Positions 5,040 through 45,673 of a stretch of DNA of 46,093 nucleotides are shown piece by piece (positions within the stretch are counted from its first letter, which is position 1; every line of letters begins with the position of its first letter). The position numbers were made by a program, and so were the translations under genes. The notes under the pieces are model-generated. The model was not told where the DNA came from. It saw nothing but the letters and a program-made list of their open reading frames with translations, and did not search any database. Source of the DNA: a bacterium (GTDB lineage: Bacteria > Bacillota_I > Bacilli_A > RF39 > UBA660); assembly GCA_030531905.1 (NCBI GenBank), contig JAUNMG010000002.1, forward strand, positions 1 through 46,093, given 5' to 3'.

Positions 5040-5113
5040 AGGGGTATAGTTTAATGGTAGAATGAGGCTCTCCAAAAGCCCAGATGTGAGTTCGATTCTT
5101 ACTACCCCTGCCA
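5040..5113 (+). tRNA. tRNA-Trp (anticodon CCA)
   Basis: A 74-nt cloverleaf. Acceptor arms AGGGGTA (5040-5046) and TACCCCT (5103-5109) pair fully. The anticodon loop is CTCCAAA with CCA at 5072-5074, the T-loop is GTTCGATTC, and the 3' CCA is encoded (5111-5113). The anticodon stem has one A-C mismatch at its base. It is one of few plus-strand genes and its 3' end faces the integrase gene, the usual geometry of an element integrated at a tRNA 3' end. Confidence 0.95.
5090..5113 (+). other. Putative attachment site: tRNA-Trp 3' end
   Basis: The integrase gene begins about 100 bp beyond the tRNA 3' end and everything rightward looks like ICE sequence. Tyrosine integrases of this kind often recombine within the T-arm and acceptor end of a tRNA (known). 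The exact crossover cannot be defined because the matching right-end copy lies outside the window. Confidence 0.35.
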
Positions 5114-5215: not shown

Positions 5216-6754
5216 TTATAAATACATAGGTCGTATTTTACATACATCCATTCTTACATTGCTCATAATATTTAAAAACGCTTCTTTTACTGTATCTGTG
5301 GTATTAGAGTCAATAAACAGATTTATATTCTCTAAATAGTTATACTTTTCTAATATATAATTTCTGCAAGTTTCTATTAAAGATTTATGATTTTGTTCTG
5401 TTAATTTTTCTCCTGTAATGTATTGAACTGCTTTAGTTACTTCTTCTTCACTAGCAATATTAATTCCAATTATTATTGAAGTAACTACTTTAAAGTTCAA
5501 TATATTAGAAACATATCTATTTTCATAATTTTTTTCTAATTTTTCTGCAATTAATTTATCTTGTCCTAAATTACTATGTGTATATATTCTTAATGTAGTT
5601 GCAACATCAGAATGTCCAAGTCTTCTTGAAACATCTTGAATTGGTACTCCCATACTTAACAAGTCAGTTGCATGAGAATGTCTAATATCATGTACTGTAA
5701 TATATCTTAAATTAAATTTTTTCCTGAATTTTTTCCATTCATCAGTTAAGTTATTAGGATTCCATATACATTTATATCTGACATTTTGAAATACAAAATC
5801 ATTATCATTTATATCATAGCCACAATTTATTTGATCTTTTTTGTATTCAAGCAATAAATCTATGCAAACAGAAGGTACATGAATATCTCTATAACTAGCA
5901 TCATTTTTTAACTTTTTACATACTAAATTATTAGGAAGTCTTTCTATAATATCTTCTTCTGCAAAATTTTCTTCTCCAACAGTAACAACGGCTCTGTCAA
6001 GTGATAAAACTCCTGTTTTAACTTTTATATCTATCCATTTAAGTCCAATTAATTCTTCTCTACGAAGTCCACTATTAAAAAGTAAAGTAATAGCAGTTTT
6101 TAATCTTAAGTTTTGAGAATGAAGTATCCTATCATTCATACCATTTTTGTGAGTTGGCAGTTTCTCTAAACATTCTAGTGCTTGTTCAATTTCATCGTGA
6201 TCATAATAATTTCGTTTTTTTGTATCTGATTTAGGCTTATTTCTAACATGAAAAGCAGGATTGTATGTTACCCATTTTTTAAATATTGCATAATTGAATA
6301 TAGTTCCTATTAATGTGTGGGAATGTTTAATAGTTGTTTCTCTTAATCCTTTATCTCTCATTTTTTTATACAAATTTTCTAAATCAGATTCTTCTATTTT
6401 TCTAATTTTTTTAAAACCAAACTCTGGTAAAATATGATTATTCAAATGAATTTTATAACCATTTATTGTTGTACCAGTTTTTTTACTATAATCTCTATCT
6501 TGCAAAAACATTTTCGCAACTTCTAAAAAGTTATAACCACCATTAGATGTTTTAATTCCTTTCGATTTGTTTTCTTTTAATTCTTTCTTTATTTCATCTC
6601 TACGTGCAATAGCATCTTCTTCAGTACCTCTAACTGTCTCTGTTATTCTATCTCTTTTTCCATCTTCACGATAACCATTACTTATTTGTATTTCATATAC
6701 TCCTTCAGATATTTTTATAATGTTTTTTAATCTGTCGTCTTTTTTTTCACTCAT
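5216..6754 (-). CDS. int: Tyrosine site-specific integrase of the ICE
   Basis: A 512-residue tyrosine recombinase that would excise and integrate the element. It has an N-terminal arm-binding region (about 15-65), a core-binding SAM-like domain (about 75-170) and the catalytic domain (about 185-400). Catalytic residues are visible: Arg231 in LLFNSGLRREEL, His355 and Arg358 in HDIRHSHA, His381 in RRLGHSD and nucleophile Tyr391 in RIYTHS. The start is preceded by AGGAGG. After Tyr391 come about 120 further residues; Tn916-type integrases end near residue 405, so this is a true C-terminal extension with no fold I recognise. The xis-like gene lies 11 nt upstream. Confidence 0.95.
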   Translation of the reverse strand: MSEKKDDRLKNIIKISEGVYEIQISNGYREDGKRDRITETVRGTEEDAIARRDEIKKELKENKSKGIKTSNGGYNFLEVAKMFLQDRDYSKKTGTTINGYKIHLNNHILPEFGFKKIRKIEESDLENLYKKMRDKGLRETTIKHSHTLIGTIFNYAIFKKWVTYNPAFHVRNKPKSDTKKRNYYDHDEIEQALECLEKLPTHKNGMNDRILHSQNLRLKTAITLLFNSGLRREELIGLKWIDIKVKTGVLSLDRAVVTVGEENFAEEDIIERLPNNLVCKKLKNDASYRDIHVPSVCIDLLLEYKKDQINCGYDINDNDFVFQNVRYKCIWNPNNLTDEWKKFRKKFNLRYITVHDIRHSHATDLLSMGVPIQDVSRRLGHSDVATTLRIYTHSNLGQDKLIAEKLEKNYENRYVSNILNFKVVTSIIIGINIASEEEVTKAVQYITGEKLTEQNHKSLIETCRNYILEKYNYLENINLFIDSNTTDTVKEAFLNIMSNVRMDVCKIRPMYL

Positions 6755-6765
6755 AATTGTACCTC

Positions 6766-7068
6766 CTAAATATATTTAATTTTTTCAGAGATACAATTTG
6801 AGCCACTAGTTTTTTGATTCTGGATATATGTTTCTATATCACGTGAATCATAAAAGTTTAATTTTCCTCTTTTTATAACAGGTATTTTATCTTCTCTAAC
6901 TGCCTGCTCTAAACCATATTGAGTTAATAATGGATATTGTTCCAAAACTTGCTTTGTTTTTAATAATTTTCCATTATTATTATTTTCTGCGAGACCTTCT
7001 TCATATTTTTTTAGTAAGCAACCAATTTCAAAAACCAAATCTCCCAATGAAAACTTATTAGAGTTCAT
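6766..7068 (-). CDS. Excisionase-like helix-turn-helix protein
   Basis: A 100-residue protein. The C-terminal half fits the small winged-helix excisionase/MerR-like DNA-binding family: TKQVLEQYPLLTQYGLEQAV, then VIKRGKLNFYDSRDIETYI. Such proteins bind near the element end and steer the integrase towards excision. The N-terminal 40 residues are unrecognised. GAAAGG precedes the ATG. It lies 11 nt before int and probably shares its transcript. I infer the Xis role from fold and position; a general transcription regulator is the alternative. Confidence 0.7.
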   Translation of the reverse strand: MNSNKFSLGDLVFEIGCLLKKYEEGLAENNNNGKLLKTKQVLEQYPLLTQYGLEQAVREDKIPVIKRGKLNFYDSRDIETYIQNQKTSGSNCISEKIKYI

Positions 7069-7092
7069 TTATTAACCTTTCTCAAATAGTGA

Positions 7093-7161
7093 TGAAACTT
7101 TGCATCTCTTAAATCACATCATATTTATTTTTAATTACTAATGCCATTGTGCAAAGTTTCA
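7093..7161. repeat. 12-bp inverted repeat upstream of the xis-like gene
   Basis: TGAAACTTTGCA (7093-7104) and TGCAAAGTTTCA (7150-7161) are perfect inverted copies 45 bp apart in the gap before the xis-like gene. They may be operator or Xis/Int arm sites. The loop is long for a terminator, although a T-run follows on the plus strand. Confidence 0.5.
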
Positions 7162-7187
7162 ATTTTTTTATAATTTATACATTTGAT

Positions 7188-7382
7188 TTATTCTTTATTT
7201 ATGAGTTTGGCATTATATTTAAAATTTGGATTTTTATCAAAAATATCATTAAGTCTCATATTGTTATTAATTCTCTTTTGTATTAAATCATCTACCTTTT
7301 TAATTGCTTTCTTCATACTATTTTCTGATATATACATAGAAGTAGTTTGTATTTTCCTTACTGTGACTAAATATCTTTTCAT
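7188..7382 (-). CDS. Small protein next to MazF (DpnD/PcfM-like start)
   Basis: A 64-residue basic protein starting MKRYLVTVRKIQTTSMYI, followed by a helix rich in Lys and Asp. Its N-terminal strand resembles the protein on the other side of mazF (MKKFLVNIRSYRDDKL). This beta-strand start followed by an acidic or basic helix is typical of DpnD/PcfM-like small proteins in ICEs. It overlaps the 3' end of mazF by 4 nt, so translation is coupled. It could be an antitoxin, but it lacks a recognisable MazE DNA-binding region. Confidence 0.6.
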   Translation of the reverse strand: MKRYLVTVRKIQTTSMYISENSMKKAIKKVDDLIQKRINNNMRLNDIFDKNPNFKYNAKLINKE

Positions 7383-7735
7383 TTAGACCTCCCTTTTATT
7401 CCTAATGCAATGTTTATAGAATTATCTATTTGTTGCATTTCTTCTAACGACAATTTTCCTAAAAAACTTTTTAATCTGCATTTATCAATCACTCTTGTTT
7501 GTTCTAATAAGACGATCGAGTTCTTTTTAATTATATTTGATGGTTTTATTTTTACATGAGTTGGAAGTTTTGCTTGCTTTGTTGAAATAGGGGCTATAAT
7601 TACTGTTGAACTAAAATAATTACCAATATTATTTTGAATAATTAAAACAGGACGAATACCACCTTGTTCACTACCTTTAACTTCGTCTAGATTTGCATAA
7701 TATATATCGCCTCTACGAATTATTTTTTTTAGCAT
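7379..7735 (-). CDS. mazF: MazF/PemK-family toxin (endoribonuclease)
   Basis: A 118-residue protein with the MazF barrel signatures: RRGDIYYANL near residue 7, EQGGIRPVLIIQNN (24-37), TVIIAPISTK and LEQTRVIDK. The family cleaves mRNA at short sequence motifs and is held inactive by an antitoxin. The Arg of GGIRPV and the later Thr/Ser of IAPIST, which line the active site, are present. No classical MazE gene precedes it; the upstream small gene (7713-7910) overlaps it by 23 nt and is the best antitoxin candidate by position. In an ICE it could act as an addiction or stabilisation module. Confidence 0.92.
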   Translation of the reverse strand: MLKKIIRRGDIYYANLDEVKGSEQGGIRPVLIIQNNIGNYFSSTVIIAPISTKQAKLPTHVKIKPSNIIKKNSIVLLEQTRVIDKCRLKSFLGKLSLEEMQQIDNSINIALGIKGRSK

Positions 7736-7910
7736 TTTCTTCCTCCCTAATGGTGTAAATGTAATTTGCTTCTCTTGGACTAATCATGCTTAATAGATTT
7801 GTTTTATTTAATATATCTTTTAATATTCTTTCTGCTTCTCGTTTGTTTTTTCCTAAAACACATAATTTATCATCTCTATAACTTCTAATATTTACTAAAA
7901 ACTTTTTCAT
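7713..7910 (-). CDS. Small DpnD/PcfM-like protein, candidate antitoxin
   Basis: A 65-residue protein: strand MKKFLVNIRSYRDDKLCVLG, then a helix with REAERILKDIL. The same helix motif, EEAERILKD, occurs in the small ICE protein at 43349-43570, with 26 identical bases. Its end overlaps mazF by 23 nt, an arrangement common to antitoxin-toxin pairs. I see no AbrB or ribbon-helix-helix motif, so antitoxin function is an inference from position only. Confidence 0.6.
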   Translation of the reverse strand: MKKFLVNIRSYRDDKLCVLGKNKREAERILKDILNKTNLLSMISPREANYIYTIREEENAKKNNS

Positions 7911-7960: not shown

Positions 7961-8131
7961 TTATTTTTCACTGTCATATTTTCTCTCGTCCAACAGTATA
8001 TGGACTTCATCAAACGATTGATTGCTAATCAATTCCATAGAAATTTCATCTTCTTGTGGATCTCACAAGACTGCCTCCATTGCTTTGGACTATGGCTAGA
8101 CAGAAGTATCATTGTCTTCATTATTTGTCAT
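7961..8131 (-). pseudogene. Broken small ICE gene with three in-frame stops
   Basis: From an ATG at 8131 a 56-codon frame runs to TAA at 7961 without any indel but with stops at codons 12 (TAG, 8096-8098), 14 (TAG, 8090-8092) and 23 (TGA, 8063-8065). The readable parts look like real protein: MTNNEDNDTSV, SKAMEAVL, DPQEDEISMELI, then FDEVHILLDERKYDSEK. Each stop is one G-to-A change from TGG, so the ancestor may have read VWPWSK and LWDPQE. I do not recognise the family. An intact fragment could start at the ATG at 8038 (25 codons). ATTAGG / CCTAAT just before 8131 can form a small hairpin. Confidence 0.5.
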
Positions 8132-8339: not shown

Positions 8340-8819
8340 TTATTTTTTTAATATTTTTTTCAATTTTGATATTCCACTATCAATACTTTCTTTAACAGAC
8401 ATAATAGAACAATTTTCTTCTTCTGCTATTTTTTTTAATGTCATATTCTCAAAATAATACTTTCTTATTCTTCTTTTTTGTACAACAGATAACTTATCTA
8501 GTGCATTTTTTAAATCATTATGTAACAGTTTTTCTTCAACTTCTTCTTCAACTGATGCTGGTTTATTTATCGATCTATGATATAAAGTTTCCTCAAACAT
8601 TTCTGACTGTTCAATATGTCTTTCGTATTTGTGCATTTGTGATATATCTTCTAATTCAAAACTATCAAATGCAAAGAAAACATTTTTTGATACTTCAATT
8701 TTATTTATATTTCTCTTATTATCTTTAAATATCACATGATATTTATTACTAACTTCGTTATATTCTAAATTATATGGGTTATCATTACTTTTTCTCCTAT
8801 TCTTTTTATATTGTCCCAT
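8340..8819 (-). CDS. Sigma-70 region 4-like regulator of the ICE
   Basis: A 159-residue protein. The C-terminal third (about 105-158) is sigma region 4: LDKLSVVQKRRIRKYYFENMTLKKIAEE, then a helix-turn-helix SIMSVKESIDSGISKLKKIL that would read a -35 element. There is no region 2 core, so like Orf7 of Tn916 it is a partial sigma-like activator. Region 105 upstream is acidic. GGAGG lies 8 nt before the ATG but can be locked in a hairpin with the end of an upstream leader frame. In Tn916 the Orf7 protein drives genes needed for excision (known); here xis, int and mazF lie downstream. Confidence 0.85.
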   Translation of the reverse strand: MGQYKKNRRKSNDNPYNLEYNEVSNKYHVIFKDNKRNINKIEVSKNVFFAFDSFELEDISQMHKYERHIEQSEMFEETLYHRSINKPASVEEEVEEKLLHNDLKNALDKLSVVQKRRIRKYYFENMTLKKIAEEENCSIMSVKESIDSGISKLKKILKK

Positions 8820-8825
8820 TGTTTA

Positions 8826-8872
8826 TCCTCCAATCATTTCAATTTTTTTAATCAAAATGATTAGATGGAGGA
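8826..8872 (-). promoter_or_regulatory. SD-sequestering hairpin before the sigma gene
   Basis: The sigma gene's ribosome site with 8 more bases (8826-8839 on the plus strand, TCCTCCAATCATTT) is complementary to 8855-8862 plus 8867-8872 (AAATGATT, 4-nt bulge, GGAGGA). The leader stop codon (8848-8850) lies in the loop. A ribosome finishing the leader would open the stem and free the site, so sigma translation should depend on leader translation. Confidence 0.65.
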
Positions 8873-9018
8873 CTTCTGCATCTATATAGCTTTATTACAT
8901 AAAAAAAGGCGCTTTCCTCACTCTTGTTAAGAGTAAAAAAAGCGACAAAATCCCTTACAGAATATTTTCGTAAATCTAAATCTAACAAAAAAAAGTAGTA
9001 TTTGTTTTTTATCTTCAT
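8848..9018 (-). CDS. Leader peptide of the sigma-gene attenuator
   Basis: A 56-codon frame whose ATG at 9018 is preceded by GGAG at good spacing; another ATG four codons earlier lacks a site. The peptide (MKIKNKYYFFLLDLDLRKYS..., ending CRSPPSNHFD) is aromatic- and Leu-rich and matches no enzyme family. An intrinsic terminator lies inside the frame and the 3' end forms one arm of the hairpin hiding the next gene's ribosome site. These properties fit a regulatory leader, as before tet(M) in Tn916, rather than a functional protein. Confidence 0.55.
   Translation of the reverse strand: MKIKNKYYFFLLDLDLRKYSVRDFVAFFTLNKSEESAFFYVIKLYRCRSPPSNHFD
8901..8944 (-). terminator. Intrinsic terminator (attenuator) inside the leader frame
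   Basis: On the minus strand the stem CGCTTT...ACTCTT / AAGAGT...AAAGCG (8939-8944 and 8929-8934 with 8920-8925 and 8910-8915) is followed by seven T's. It would stop transcription before the sigma gene unless a ribosome translating the leader follows closely. Confidence 0.8.
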
Positions 9019-9066
9019 AGGCAGCTCCATATGAGCAATGCCATAAGGTAAAAATAAATACTACTT
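8993..9066 (-). promoter_or_regulatory. 11-bp inverted repeat around the leader start
   Basis: AAGTAGTATTT in the leader RNA (9056-9066) pairs perfectly with AAATACTACTT (8993-9003), enclosing the leader's ribosome site and ATG. A second copy of the first arm lies upstream at 9153-9163. The stem could hide the leader start or set up a choice of structures. Confidence 0.55.
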
Positions 9067-9191
9067 AAAAAATATTTTGCTTATTTATTATTAACTATTA
9101 CATTATTGAATTATGAGTTTAAATACTACATACTACAATACTGCTATACTACAAATACTACTTAACTACACACCCCTGATTTTACTACAAT
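9067..9191 (-). repeat. GTAGTA-rich 5' region of the sigma leader
   Basis: Between about 9121 and 9191 TACTAC (GTAGTA on the minus strand) recurs six times at irregular spacing, including the 11-mer AAATACTACTT at 9153-9163 that repeats at 9056-9066. No gene is seen. It may bind a regulator or form RNA structure. I could not identify a convincing promoter for the leader; it should lie in or just above this stretch. Confidence 0.45.
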
Positions 9192-18218: not shown

Positions 18219-20471
18219 TTATCTTAATTGAACTCCATAGCCATTATCACAAGTCATATACAGCCATCTTAATGATGGCCATGAACTAGCAGAGGCATTT
18301 GCTAATAAATGATTAGCAGCACTCAAAACATGAGAATAATTACTACTATCTGAAATAAAATCATAATATCCTGTATATTCAAGATTCCAACGACCTCCAA
18401 GACCTTTTTGTGCAAGTAATTCTTGAAATCTTGCAATTCTTGAATTATCTCCATCTTGTGCTTGTCCTGTTAGTAAATAACAATTAGTTTCTCTTACACT
18501 AGCAGTTAATGTTATGTCATTATCTGGCATTGCTAATCCACCAATAATTCCTCCATTATAAATCCACCCATTAAATACATGAACACTATCAACTGAATAG
18601 CCTAGCATTGGTACTTGTGCATTATAATTTACTCTTTGTGAAGAATAAACAGAGCCATTTGGATTTTTGTAGGTTACTGTATGAGTTCTTATTTTCCAAT
18701 TAGCAGTAAATGTTCTGTTTCCTATTGATCCATTTTTAATAGTTATGGTATTTGATGTATTACCATTTTCATCAGTCCAACCTGTGAAATCATAACCTGT
18801 TCTTGTTGGAGTACCAATAGTAATATCTTCATCTTCAATAGTATAAGTTTCTACTTTATTAGTTAATTTTCCACCATTTAAGTTATAATTTATTGAATAT
18901 ATAGTAGGTTTCCAATTAGCAGTAAAAGTAATATTCCCAATCGTTCCATGCTTTATAGTTACATCTTTTTTGGGAGTATCGTTATCAGGAGTAGTCCAAC
19001 CTAAAAAGTCATATCCTCTTTTTGTTGGAGTACCAATAGTAATATCTTCACTCTCAACAGTATAAATAGTTGGTGGATTTTCCAAAGTTCCACCATTTAA
19101 GTTATACTTGATGTCATAATAAACTAATCTCCAATTAGCACTAAAAAACATATCTCCAATAGTTCCTGTATTTACCTGAATTTGTTTATTTAATTTACTA
19201 CCATTACTACCTGTCCAACCCATAAAGTTATATCCTGTTTTTATTGGCATATCAATAATAAAATTATCAGATTCAATACTATAAGTTGCTCGTGCTTTAT
19301 CCAATATTCCACCATTTAACTTGTAGTAAATTGTATAATCTCTCAATCTCCAATTAGCATCAAAAGAAAGATCGCCTGTTGTACCTGTTTCAACAGTAAC
19401 TACCTTTGTTGGTCGTACTATATTATTACCTGTCCAACCCATAAAGTTATATCCTGTTTTTGTTGGCTTATCTAATTGAAATGTATCATTTTCAACATTG
19501 TAATTATTTAATAAATTGTCAGCTGTTCCACCATATAAATTATAATTAAGATTGTAATTTATAATTTTCCAATTAGCAGTAAAAGTAATATTCCCAATCG
19601 TTCCATGCTTTATAGTTACATCTTTTTTGGGAGTATCGTTATCAGGAGTAGTCCAACCTGTGAAATCATAACCTGTTCTTGTTGGAGTACCAATAGTAAT
19701 ATCTTCACTTTCAATAGTATAAATAGTTGGTAGGTTTTCTAAAGTTCCACCATTTAAGTTATAATTTATTGAATATTGAATAGCTTCCCATTTGGCATAT
19801 AATATAATATCTTTTTCCATATTTTTTGTTATTTTAGATATTTTTTTATTAAACTCTTTATCTAAATACCAACCTAAAAAGTCATAACCTTTTTTGTTAG
19901 GAATAGGCAATTCAAAATTGCTACCTTTTTTATATTCTTTGATTTGATTTACAAGTTCTCCACCATTTAATTGATACTCAATTTTAAAAATATTTTCTTT
20001 TTCTATCTTTTGCTTCTTTATAATTTTATTTTTTTGTTTTTCATCTGTTACTTTAGGTTTAATATCATCAAGACCTGTTATATCATCAATAATTGGTGTA
20101 ATAGGATCAAGTATTTTCTTTTTTACAGGCTCTTTTGTATCGAAAGACAATAAAAAAAGCAATACTAATAATATTAATAATAGTAAATGCTTTCTTTTTA
20201 TTTCTATATATCTATTATTTCCAACATATATATAGCCTTTAGTAAACCCAAATATTTTATTTTTTACTATATATTTCTTTTTTCCATCAACAAGTAGGTC
20301 TGTTTGTTGCTTTTTATTTTTCTTTAATTTTTTCAATTTTGTTTTACCAACTATAAATACATTTTTTCCTTCATCTAATTGTCTCTTTTTTATATAAGGT
20401 ATATGATGTGTGTATTTTAATTTTTTATCTTTTTTTATACATACTTTGTAAATATTTTTATCATAATTCAC
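18219..20471 (-). CDS. Surface protein with InlB B-repeats (Listeria-Bacteroides repeats)
   Basis: A 750-residue protein: a basic cytoplasmic region, one membrane helix (about 96-110), a Lys/Pro linker, then six full InlB B-repeats and a partial one with hallmarks such as YNLNGG, TPTRTGYDFTGW and FTANWK, and a C-terminal region of about 100 residues. Such repeats occur in extracellular adhesins. I chose the GTG at 20471: AAGGGG lies 9 nt before it and the upstream gene stops 4 nt earlier; the ATG at 20519 would overlap that gene by 44 nt. Two repeats share a 94-bp identical block. It may help mating-pair contact. Confidence 0.85.
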   Translation of the reverse strand: MNYDKNIYKVCIKKDKKLKYTHHIPYIKKRQLDEGKNVFIVGKTKLKKLKKNKKQQTDLLVDGKKKYIVKNKIFGFTKGYIYVGNNRYIEIKRKHLLLLILLVLLFLLSFDTKEPVKKKILDPITPIIDDITGLDDIKPKVTDEKQKNKIIKKQKIEKENIFKIEYQLNGGELVNQIKEYKKGSNFELPIPNKKGYDFLGWYLDKEFNKKISKITKNMEKDIILYAKWEAIQYSINYNLNGGTLENLPTIYTIESEDITIGTPTRTGYDFTGWTTPDNDTPKKDVTIKHGTIGNITFTANWKIINYNLNYNLYGGTADNLLNNYNVENDTFQLDKPTKTGYNFMGWTGNNIVRPTKVVTVETGTTGDLSFDANWRLRDYTIYYKLNGGILDKARATYSIESDNFIIDMPIKTGYNFMGWTGSNGSKLNKQIQVNTGTIGDMFFSANWRLVYYDIKYNLNGGTLENPPTIYTVESEDITIGTPTKRGYDFLGWTTPDNDTPKKDVTIKHGTIGNITFTANWKPTIYSINYNLNGGKLTNKVETYTIEDEDITIGTPTRTGYDFTGWTDENGNTSNTITIKNGSIGNRTFTANWKIRTHTVTYKNPNGSVYSSQRVNYNAQVPMLGYSVDSVHVFNGWIYNGGIIGGLAMPDNDITLTASVRETNCYLLTGQAQDGDNSRIARFQELLAQKGLGGRWNLEYTGYYDFISDSSNYSHVLSAANHLLANASASSWPSLRWLYMTCDNGYGVQLR

Positions 20472-20475
20472 AATA

Positions 20476-21225
20476 TTATCTTCCCCTTTCTTTATCTTTA
20501 CAAAAACTTCTATCATCATTAAAACTTAATTCCAAATTACCATAACCAAGTATTTTATATTCATCTTCTTCAAATGTTATTATGTCATCTAGGTTATATT
20601 TTTTTACTTCTTCTTTTAATTTTTCAATATCATAATCGTTAAAGTCATCTGCATAATATTCCTTCCAATCTTCTTCTGTTATATGGCACATCGTACTTTC
20701 TGACTCATGTACTGTATCATATATCTCTTTCATTAATTTTGAGCATTTTGATATTTTAGGAAGATTAATATATTTTTCAAAATCTCTATATATTAAGGAT
20801 TTCATTTTATTTTTAATAATAAATATATCCTTATAATCTAACTCATAACTAGCAACTATATTCCCAACCATTTTATTATTTTGATACAACATTGCACGAC
20901 ACCTCATATCTCCAAAATCACTTTTCCAAACATCTGTTATCTCAACTTTTCTATGAGGGAACTCATTTTTGTACCAATTATCAAACTTTTTCCATTCATT
21001 TTCCTTATAAAGGATATCACTTAAAAGAATAACATTGTATTTTTTCTTTATTTCTTCCATTTGACTAATCCAATCATCTGACTCATAAGACAATGTTCCA
21101 TATTCACTATACATTTTGTTAACATTATCTTCTTTATTTACTTTATCAAGATATATTTCTATTGCTTCATATTTCTCTGTACCAATAGATTTTTTAATTT
21201 CTTCATATTCTTGTAATATACTCAT
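20476..21225 (-). CDS. Unrecognised 249-residue protein of the transfer operon
   Basis: A highly charged soluble protein with no signal peptide, membrane helix or motif I recognise. Blocks of note are EWKKFDNWYKNEFPHRKVEI and ITEEDWKEYYADDFNDYDIE. The last codons (KDKERGR) contain the ribosome site of the next gene. It starts 4 nt after the previous gene and lies between VirB6-like and surface-protein genes. No function is assigned. Confidence 0.65.
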   Translation of the reverse strand: MSILQEYEEIKKSIGTEKYEAIEIYLDKVNKEDNVNKMYSEYGTLSYESDDWISQMEEIKKKYNVILLSDILYKENEWKKFDNWYKNEFPHRKVEITDVWKSDFGDMRCRAMLYQNNKMVGNIVASYELDYKDIFIIKNKMKSLIYRDFEKYINLPKISKCSKLMKEIYDTVHESESTMCHITEEDWKEYYADDFNDYDIEKLKEEVKKYNLDDIITFEEDEYKILGYGNLELSFNDDRSFCKDKERGR

Positions 21226-43570: not shown

Positions 43571-43793
43571 TTCGATCATTCCTTTCTTCATATCCACTTA
43601 AAAAAGCAATTATCTTTTTATCTTTAATTGCTTTCTTAAAATCAATAATTATTAATGCTTCATTTGCTTGTAAACTAGGTATCTTACCTAAATCTTCTAA
43701 CTTCATTGATAGTATTTTCTTATCAGTATTAAAACCTGCTTGAAATAACTTTTCTAATGTTTTAGTAATTTGCATAATTCCATACTTATCCAT
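43557..43793 (-). CDS. Small 78-residue ICE protein
   Basis: A small helical protein: MDKYGIMQITKTLEKLFQAGFNT and IIIDFKKAIKDKKIIAFLSG. The ATG at 43793 overlaps the stop of the sortase gene and lies 8 nt after GAGGAG. No family recognised. It is translationally coupled to the sortase gene on one side and overlaps the next gene on the other. Confidence 0.6.
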   Translation of the reverse strand: MDKYGIMQITKTLEKLFQAGFNTDKKILSMKLEDLGKIPSLQANEALIIIDFKKAIKDKKIIAFLSGYEERNDRNEQI

Positions 43794-44418
43794 TGTAATC
43801 GCTCTCCTCAATTTCTTCAAAAATATATATTAATTGCTTGTTAGTATCTTCTTTACAAGTGATTAAAGTTAAAGTTTTTGTACTCAAGCTACAATTAAAT
43901 GTAGTTTTACCTGTCTTTTCTATTTCATAGTTGTCTACCAACTTATAAGAGTATTTTCTATTCTTATAGACAATAGTTGCTATATCATCTTTAGTAAGTT
44001 TTACTAAATCTTTAAAATATGCTTTTTGTCCATTACCAGAATGTCCTGCTAAAATTAAATTACCATTTTCTACATCTGGCATATTAGACTCTTTCAATAT
44101 TTGAATATTCTTATCTACATTGTTATTTTTAGATTTAATATCATATAAACCTTTTTCAAGATTTATCTTTGGTATTTCTAATAAAGCTATATATTGTTCC
44201 TTTGCTTTTGGAGTAGTATCTGCCTTATCTTCTGTAATTGTTTCTTTGTCATCTTCTACTTTTTGTTCCTGATTATCTTTAAAATTAGTAATATTTTCTT
44301 TTTCTTCTATATTTTTGAAAATATATGAAATCATTTTAAATGACAATGTACTTAAACCTAATATAATTAACAAAAAACCAACTAATTTTAGGCTCTTTCT
44401 TTTATCTTTTGTTCTCAT
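43786..44418 (-). CDS. Sortase (class D-like) with an unusual active-site context
   Basis: A 210-residue protein with an N-terminal membrane helix (about 10-30), a Glu/Lys/Asp-rich linker and the sortase barrel: IPKINLEKGLYD, LILAGHSGNG (His near 124) and LTLITCKEDTNK (Cys near 188). The Arg that normally follows the Cys by about 10 residues is not seen; the aligned stretch reads NKQLIYIF, with Gln or Lys in its place. The gene overlaps the adhesin gene by 17 nt. The pair may be a dedicated surface-anchoring system for the ICE. Confidence 0.8.
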   Translation of the reverse strand: MRTKDKRKSLKLVGFLLIILGLSTLSFKMISYIFKNIEEKENITNFKDNQEQKVEDDKETITEDKADTTPKAKEQYIALLEIPKINLEKGLYDIKSKNNNVDKNIQILKESNMPDVENGNLILAGHSGNGQKAYFKDLVKLTKDDIATIVYKNRKYSYKLVDNYEIEKTGKTTFNCSLSTKTLTLITCKEDTNKQLIYIFEEIEESDYNG

Positions 44419-45673
44419 AAATCACAACTCCTATTCCTAAAATTATCATAATTACTGCACATATCTCTATTGTGTGTTTATCATGTATTACTGTATCAGG
44501 TACTTCAACAATTATTACTTCTTCAGGTTCTTCTGGTATTTCTTCAGGCTCATCTTCTGGTTCTATAACTATTTTCTCATTATAAAAATATATTGATTCT
44601 TTGGTATGATTACCCTCAATAGTAAATACATAATCATCAATAAACTTATAATTTTCAACACCAGATATTTGAACAACTTTATATGTTCCTAGTTTTAAAT
44701 AAATTGATGTATTACCATCTTCATTAGTAGATATAGTATCAATTAATTCTCCTGTATCATTGTTATATATTTCAAACTCTGCATTTTCTTCTGGTGCATA
44801 TATACCATCTGATCCATAAAGTTTATTAATTTTAAACTCTGTATATACTGTCATATTAATTCTTCCATTAATGAATGTTGGATCACCTCTTGATAAACAT
44901 TTTTGATTTGAGCTATCATATAACATAGGAATCTTATCGTTAGTTTTTGCATTTAAGTTAATTGTTCCTTCATAACCTTTCTTTGCAGTAATAACTAAAT
45001 CATTTCCATTAATTTTCATATCTAAACTATCATTAGAATTAACAGTAAAAAAGTTAGATAAAATCTCATTATTATCATGTAATGTTATAGTTTCTCCAAC
45101 TTTCATATCTACTGTTTGATTATTAAAACTAATTGTTTTTCCATGCTTTGCTACTAATTGTTTTATTTCATTCATTTTAGCATCATACTTATCTATTCTA
45201 GTTAAGGTGTGATCTCCCTCTGCTATTGGATAAGGTGTTGCAACTTTTTCTGTAACTTCCCAAATTAATAATTGTGTTGCTGCATACCAATCTAAATCAT
45301 TATGATTTCCATAACCATAACCATAATATGCATATAATTCTATTCTTTCTATTTCTTCTTCTGTTAAATCTGTTAATGCTAATTTATCTGCTGTACTTTC
45401 ATAACCATTAACAAGGGAGTTATCGTTAAACTTTACATGTGCTTGTATGCAATAAACATACCCACCATCACTTCTTCTTTTAATTGGGTTTTCGTCTCCT
45501 ATAACCCAATAACTTAAATCATTATATTTTGTAGTTGCTACATAATATGTGTAGCTATAATCAATATCAAGAATATCTCTAGTTGTTTGTGCATTTGCTA
45601 TTATTGGAATTGCTCCAAACATAGTAAAAAATATAAAAACACATTGCATTAATTTTTTAAAAACTTTATTCAT
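44402..45673 (-). CDS. Thioester-domain surface adhesin, sortase substrate
   Basis: A 423-residue protein. A signal peptide (residues 1-28, ANA|QTT) precedes a thioester domain with Cys75 in YCIQAH and Gln134 in AATQLLIWE, the bond partners of Gram-positive TED adhesins, then a region of strands, an SpaA/Cna-B-like domain (FEIYNNDTGELID), a Pro/Glu-rich stretch and the anchor EVPDTVIHDKH-IEIC-ILGIGVVIY with basic end. The sorting motif reads VPDTV, not LPxTG. TED proteins bind host or cell surfaces covalently (known); here it may aid mating contact (inferred). Confidence 0.85.
   Translation of the reverse strand: MNKVFKKLMQCVFIFFTMFGAIPIIANAQTTRDILDIDYSYTYYVATTKYNDLSYWVIGDENPIKRRSDGGYVYCIQAHVKFNDNSLVNGYESTADKLALTDLTEEEIERIELYAYYGYGYGNHNDLDWYAATQLLIWEVTEKVATPYPIAEGDHTLTRIDKYDAKMNEIKQLVAKHGKTISFNNQTVDMKVGETITLHDNNEILSNFFTVNSNDSLDMKINGNDLVITAKKGYEGTINLNAKTNDKIPMLYDSSNQKCLSRGDPTFINGRINMTVYTEFKINKLYGSDGIYAPEENAEFEIYNNDTGELIDTISTNEDGNTSIYLKLGTYKVVQISGVENYKFIDDYVFTIEGNHTKESIYFYNEKIVIEPEDEPEEIPEEPEEVIIVEVPDTVIHDKHTIEICAVIMIILGIGVVIYENKR

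Follow-up and report, generated by a model that had tools for sequence, protein, structure and literature searches.

The window, that is, the whole 46,093-nt stretch of DNA analyzed here, carries on its minus strand a recombination module headed by the gene for a sigma-70 family factor, with genes for a relaxase, a coupling protein, and a TraG ATPase further along the same strand (Table 1). An integrase, a relaxase, a coupling protein, and a secretion ATPase lie together in one block, which identifies the element as an ICE by its gene content; with the PemK-like protein also found, the ICE context assigned by an earlier reading of the letters alone (the sequence-only reading) is borne out. The 100-aa ORF of the module was judged by eye to be excisionase-like, and the Rfam pemK RNA downstream of the sigma gene is probably on the same transcript as that gene. 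Among the cargo of the element are genes for a large repeat surface protein (List_Bact_rpt), a sortase, and a thioester-domain adhesin (18219 to 20519 and 43786 to 45673, both on the minus strand).

The sigma gene is preceded by a structured leader region (9066 to 8819, minus strand). Folding of the whole leader, suggested as a check by the sequence-only reading, gave a structure far more stable than those of dinucleotide shuffles (z = -7.5; 0 of 200 equally stable). The window contains a perfect 11-bp stem around the leader start (P1), whose 3' arm is followed by a run of eight T's (T8); a small hairpin that presents the leader SD sequence in its loop; a leader ORF, which would have 60 codons rather than 56 if the alternative start at 9030 were used (9030 to 8848); an intrinsic terminator within that ORF, the sole terminator-like site within 1.4 kb; and a hairpin that sequesters the SD sequence of the sigma gene, with the leader stop codon (TAA, 8850 to 8848) at its loop and the sigma SD sequence (GGAGG, 8831 to 8827) in its 3' arm. 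A covariance-model search of the leader against Rfam returned no family at the gathering score, the best matches lying far under the cut-off.

Table 1. Coordinates of the sigma leader, its structural elements, and neighboring genes in the window
Feature	Positions	Strand	Remarks
P1 stem, 5' arm (AAGTAGTATTT)	9056..9066	-	Perfect pairing with 9003-8993; z -5 to -6
P1 stem, 3' arm (AAATACTACTT)	8993..9003	-	Within leader codons
Small hairpin GGCA-(TTGCTCATATGGAGC)-TGCC	9020..9042	-	Leader SD GGAG at 9028-9025; directly before leader AUG
Leader ORF, MKIKNKYY...LYRCRSPPSNHFD, then stop	8848..9018	-	56 aa; likelier start at 9018, behind GGAG
Intrinsic terminator inside leader ORF	8901..8944	-	16-bp stem 8944-8910; T7 8907-8901; dG -18.9, z -4.9
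R-S-P-P codons AGA AGT CCT CCA, putative ribosome-arrest core	8866..8877	-	CCTCC = anti-SD
SD-sequestering hairpin, 20 bp, interrupted	8825..8873	-	dG -20.5, z -4.7; 5' arm overlaps RSPP
ICE sigma-70 family factor	8340..8819	-	159 aa; sigma region 4; Pfam Sigma70_r4 28 bits; TIGR02937 above cut-off
Rfam pemK RNA (RF02913)	8035..8115	-	225 nt 3' of sigma stop
Rest of recombination module	5216..7910	-	65-aa ORF, PemK-like toxin, 64-aa ORF, 100-aa ORF, tyrosine integrase
tRNA-Trp beside integrase	5040-5113	+	

Conservation of the leader architecture

Homologues of the sigma factor were gathered by sigma homology alone, with the leaders ignored (30 loci in genomes of the order to which the window belongs, 63 in named assemblies), and 55 non-redundant loci with sufficient upstream DNA formed the working set. 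The order of leader ORF, terminator, SD hairpin, and sigma gene is kept in nearly all of these relatives. The reading frame that runs into the hairpin is free of stops for a median of 51 codons ahead of the conserved motif described below, compared with 8 codons in shuffled sequences and 4.5 in the two alternative frames, and it is open for at least 35 codons in 41 of 53 loci (4.5% of shuffles). Terminators are widespread too: folding placed a U-tailed terminator hairpin just 5' of the motif in 53 of 55 loci but in only 33 of 165 shuffles (20%). Folding here replaced a first terminator rule that allowed loops of up to 9 nt and caught 28 of the 55.

Two other elements of the sequence-only reading are present in the window but less general. 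The position of the leader stop codon in the loop is not conserved; leaders end anywhere from -35 to +49 relative to the sigma start, about half of those in relatives stopping between -35 and -17 and about a third running across the sigma SD sequence or start codon. The P1 stem exceeds the 95th percentile of shuffles in 13 of 48 loci, and homologous stems with compensatory changes occur in a subset (e.g., L003, L027, L040, L066, and L084), so that we rejected P1 as a universal feature. The T8 run, which is specific to the window, was considered as a second terminator following P1 and likewise rejected, as inspection of relatives by eye showed none. More common than P1 is the hairpin immediately ahead of the leader AUG that holds the leader SD sequence in its loop (29 of 53 loci versus 94 of 1,060 shuffles, or 9%), and the same start hairpin is found in the Tn916/Tn1549-type orf7 leaders L137, L139, and L140. 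That a GGC...SD...GCC start hairpin is common to the orf7 leaders and about half of the R-x-P-P loci suggests that these leaders share the origin of their 5' part.

The N-terminal residue profile of the leaders contains no conserved segment, and their lengths vary. The leader of L173 (G414:C32:6572-6632), at 12 residues (MSYYIRAPPPMI, followed by the stop), precedes an ORF of 153 aa that was not matched by the sigma profile used.

The R-x-P-P motif

The best conserved part of the leader is one that the sequence-only reading had missed, namely, an Arg-x-Pro-Pro motif at the end of the leader peptide, whose codons overlap the 5' arm of the SD hairpin. A motif of this type was found in 53 of the 55 loci (RSPP, 32; RGPP, 8; RDPP, 4; RAPP, 4; KSPP, 3; RPPP, 1; RSPS, 1), with R-[S/G/D/A]-P-P proper accounting for 48, and the remaining two loci read HSPP and RSPT by eye. 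The corresponding frequencies in controls were 41 of 2,200 shuffles (2%) and 2 of 55 reverse complements. Two loci of a viral collection, held out from the analysis, read RSPP and RDPP; a first scan of that collection with a single sigma protein had given no match. The leaders often end in (R/K)-C-R-S-P-P, with R or K at position -2 in 27 and C at position -1 in 32 of 53, and apart from this (R/K)-C the residues upstream of the motif are barely conserved.

The two Pro codons form the anti-SD strand, the pairing partner of the sigma SD sequence, and the conservation of Pro-Pro follows in part from this pairing. The other two positions behave differently at the codon level. Arg occupies the motif position in 50 of the 53 matched loci and is encoded by AGA (34), CGT (9), AGG (4), or CGA (3); no base of the second codon is conserved, with Ser there encoded by AGY in 24 loci and by TCN in 12. 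On the sigma-protein tree, at least 12 changes of codon class were counted for Arg and at least 20 for the second codon. Arg has thus been retained through repeated switches of codon class, and R-x-P-P is under selection at the level of the peptide as well.

Sequestration of the sigma SD sequence

When each locus was folded separately, the sigma SD sequence paired with the motif region in 49 of 50, and masking the footprint of an arrested ribosome in silico left at most one of the five SD bases paired in 40 of 50. The R codon lies 44 to 63 nt before the sigma start (71 nt in one case), and, with one exception among 53 loci, the first Pro codon and the sigma start are 38 to 57 nt apart, a spacing that leaves room for an arrested ribosome together with an initiating one. 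The hairpin covaries: in a 23-row alignment with the helix specified, 95.1% of cells were paired (87.5% when shuffled) and the covariation score was 0.288 (0.148 when shuffled), falling to 0.07 or less when the partner strand was slid by one column. RNAalifold predicted no pairs from a 49-row MAFFT alignment because loop lengths vary.

Model R1, a covariance model for this hairpin, scored the window at 60 bits, and in the search with this model, on which the estimate of specificity rests, this was the only significant match in the host genome. Strong matches in other genomes were nearly all R-x-P-P leaders preceding sigma genes, some of them broken. In L143 and L156, intact leaders stand before sigma genes interrupted by stop codons or frameshifts, i.e., decayed elements. 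One further match, L168, lies within an apparent rpoB gene and was rejected as due to chance.

Proposed mechanism and alternative explanations

We interpret the leader as a transcription attenuator combined with a putative arrest peptide of the SecM/Erm kind, such that production of the ICE sigma factor depends on translation of the leader; we put the probability of this reading at about 0.7. Transcription would begin upstream, and the small hairpin would present the leader SD sequence. If no ribosome followed closely behind RNA polymerase, the 16-bp terminator within the leader would stop transcription; if a ribosome translated the leader in step, the terminator would not form and RNA polymerase would proceed into sigma, the pemK RNA, xis, and int. 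A ribosome arrested at R-x-P-P would then cover the anti-SD sequence (CCUCC) and open the hairpin, allowing a second ribosome to start on sigma about 50 nt downstream, while without arrest the hairpin would close again and sigma would stay off. On this model, which presumes that arrest occurs, the arrested complex would be the ON state, and the sigma factor would go on to activate excision and transfer; gene order makes it plausible that the leader controls these processes. Three inputs to such a switch can be envisaged: (i) initiation on the leader, through the start hairpin; (ii) ribosome-polymerase coupling, through the terminator; and (iii) the strength of arrest, for which the overall translation status or ribosome-targeting drugs would be the obvious candidate signals.

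Several published properties of R-x-P-P arrest peptides bear on this reading. In a mutagenesis study of ApdA and ApdP, Arg was irreplaceable, whereas Ala could be replaced by Gly with full and by Ser, Asp, or Pro with partial retention of arrest (PMC12992588), and the second motif residue in our loci (S, G, D, A, or P) is drawn from the same set of arrest-permissive residues. According to the same report, RxPP is strongly avoided in proteomes, especially those of Bacillota, and the arrest is not relieved by EF-P (PMC12992588). RAPP by itself is insufficient for arrest and needs a suitable upstream sequence (PMC7897499). RSPP, the commonest form here, supports arrest only partly in ApdA/ApdP, less well than RAPP or RGPP do in the contexts tested; incomplete pausing that depends on conditions would be well suited to regulation.

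The sequence-only reading had proposed that leader translation gates sigma expression, with termination of translation in the loop as the opener of the hairpin. The gate itself is supported by the terminators, the SD sequestration, and the open frame seen across relatives, but the opener is not conserved, and the spread of stop positions means that the hairpin cannot generally be opened by termination in its loop; arrest, rather than the stop codon, is the likelier means of opening the hairpin. The same spread weighs against plain translational coupling with attenuation, in which a ribosome reaching the leader stop would melt the hairpin and no arrest would be required. In leaders that stop in the loop, such as that of the window, coupling of this kind would open the hairpin too, and the half of relatives with stops shortly before the sigma start could be accommodated; a ribosome on one of the leaders that cross the sigma SD sequence or start codon, however, would block initiation, and coupling leaves both Arg-x-Pro-Pro and its codon switching unexplained. 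We consider it unlikely. Far less probable still is that R-x-P-P is a mere by-product of the anti-SD RNA, with a peptide that has no effect. CCnCC is required for pairing with the SD sequence and encodes Pro-Pro in one of its three frames, but 53 of 55 loci use one and the same frame, and an RNA constraint of this sort would account neither for an x codon free of conserved bases nor for an Arg that persists through four codons of two classes.

A different division of labor would result if the (R/K)-C-R or S-P-P context stalled drug-bound ribosomes only, as in Erm-type drug-sensing leaders, so that the ICE would move under drug exposure. The SD-hairpin logic equals that of erm leaders, the residues at -2 and -1 noted above fit such a reading, some relatives sit just behind tet(O) or tet(40), and Tn916 is activated by translation inhibitors (PMC9154091). 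The +x+ context is nevertheless present in only about half of the leaders, and most carriers have no adjacent resistance gene; we consider this account about as unlikely as plain coupling.

Relation to known regulatory leaders

ApdA/ApdP and SecM, encoded upstream of secDF and secA, have in common with the present leaders a C-terminal R-x-(P/G)-P core and the same permitted residues. In SecM-secA, the SD sequence of the next gene is held in a hairpin that the arrested ribosome opens (PMC7897499), and the same is predicted here. The ICE leaders differ from these systems in that they mostly carry RSPP, are short, contain an intrinsic terminator, and act on an ICE sigma gene in Bacillota; uORFs with RAPP or RGPP are reported to be absent from many members of that phylum (PMC12992588). 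CruR (DUF2946), a copper-sensing uORF of Bordetella, also depends on RAPP and gates transcription beyond the uORF (PMC9426467), but it does so by Rho-dependent termination and a CXXC sensor rather than by an intrinsic terminator within the leader and an SD hairpin. In erm/ermC translational attenuation, a ribosome stalled on the leader frees the SD sequence of the next gene, as we propose, whereas the RxPP core and the added terminator set the present leaders apart from it. Arrest peptides of the RAPP/RGPP type have been found upstream of ECF sigma genes in Streptomyces lividans (SLIV_33595/SLIV_33605); they have four predicted transmembrane segments and are chromosomal, not borne on an ICE, and the accessible sections of that report describe no terminator/SD-hairpin architecture for them (PMC12992588).

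The likeness that the sequence-only reading had drawn to tet(M) attenuation in Tn916 holds in logic only. In both cases, a leader ORF overlaps a terminator in an ICE and control depends on translation, but the tet(M) leader controls a resistance gene, whereas the present leader precedes the sigma gene directly. Homology was rejected, since the tet(M) and tet(O) leaders in L103 and L034 lack RxPP and differ in sequence. No resistance gene intervenes between leader and sigma gene, as had been stated for the window, and this is also true of the relatives adjoining tet(O), where the tet gene sits upstream of the leader. The leaders of Tn916 orf7 and of Tn1549-type sigma genes were considered as members and rejected as well; they have Pro-Pro codons near the anti-SD sequence (TNPP, REPP, and EAPP) but no R-x-P-P. 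A search of the literature, with subscription papers outside its coverage, found no account of an ICE sigma leader of this kind. The best reading, in our view, is that the leader combines known kinds of control in a new form that is broadly distributed.

Distribution and association with the pemK RNA

Distant sigma genes that align poorly with that of the window also have RxPP about 50 to 65 nt upstream (L098, L107-L110, L112, L114, L118, L124, and L126), and further cases are L158, L164, L171-L174, and L177. In Enterococcus faecalis pE509-3 and Streptococcus suis phi-SsuZKB4_rum, an RCRSPP leader and its sigma gene come after tet(O), which is accompanied by a KTR gene, or after tet(40). The same stretch is present on a Salmonella IncC plasmid, where IS26 has apparently cut the sigma gene. 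RxPP arrest peptides were previously known mainly from genes of protein export and metal homeostasis; here the motif is found at the front of the regulatory operon in conjugative elements from both Bacilli and Clostridia, among them the Enterococcus and Streptococcus elements that lie behind tet(O). Should arrest be confirmed, it would link the state of the ribosome directly to horizontal gene transfer, and model R1 together with R-x-P-P would provide a sequence signature for finding such elements.

The pemK RNA lies 3' of the sigma gene in the relatives checked as well (L190-L195), and likewise in Tn916/Tn1549-like elements (L136, 3329 to 3426; L138, 3386 to 3483; L140, 3444 to 3541). The processive antiterminator canT has been mapped in Tn916 to 126 to 577 nt after orf8 (PMC11658703); the pemK RNA of L136, at 179 to 276 nt after orf8, falls inside this interval. 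The canT paper mentions neither pemK nor Rfam (PMC11658703). The pemK RNA may represent a canT-type family of antiterminators, and if so, the leader terminator would gate production of the antiterminator too. A tentative but serious possibility is that these leaders define a widespread and hitherto undescribed class of ICE switches in Firmicutes, elements with tet(O) among them, in which a self-arresting leader with an internal terminator reads the state of translation, drug-stressed ribosomes included, and thereby decides whether sigma, the genes for excision, and an antiterminator RNA resembling canT are expressed.

Two minor observations concern sequences at the margin of this family. In L033 (1930 to 2165, Monoglobus), a 13-aa leader with a GTG start and no RxPP (MTYKWLAYIAKYP, followed by the stop) precedes a sigma gene that has both a terminator and an SD hairpin; this is possibly a variant of the same control. 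G[TC]AGTA repeats lie 5' of the leader in the window (about 9116 to 9176, minus strand) and in its relatives, where they are enriched about sevenfold (77 copies versus 11 expected in 53 loci); they are possibly an operator, a promoter element, or a repeat related to P1.
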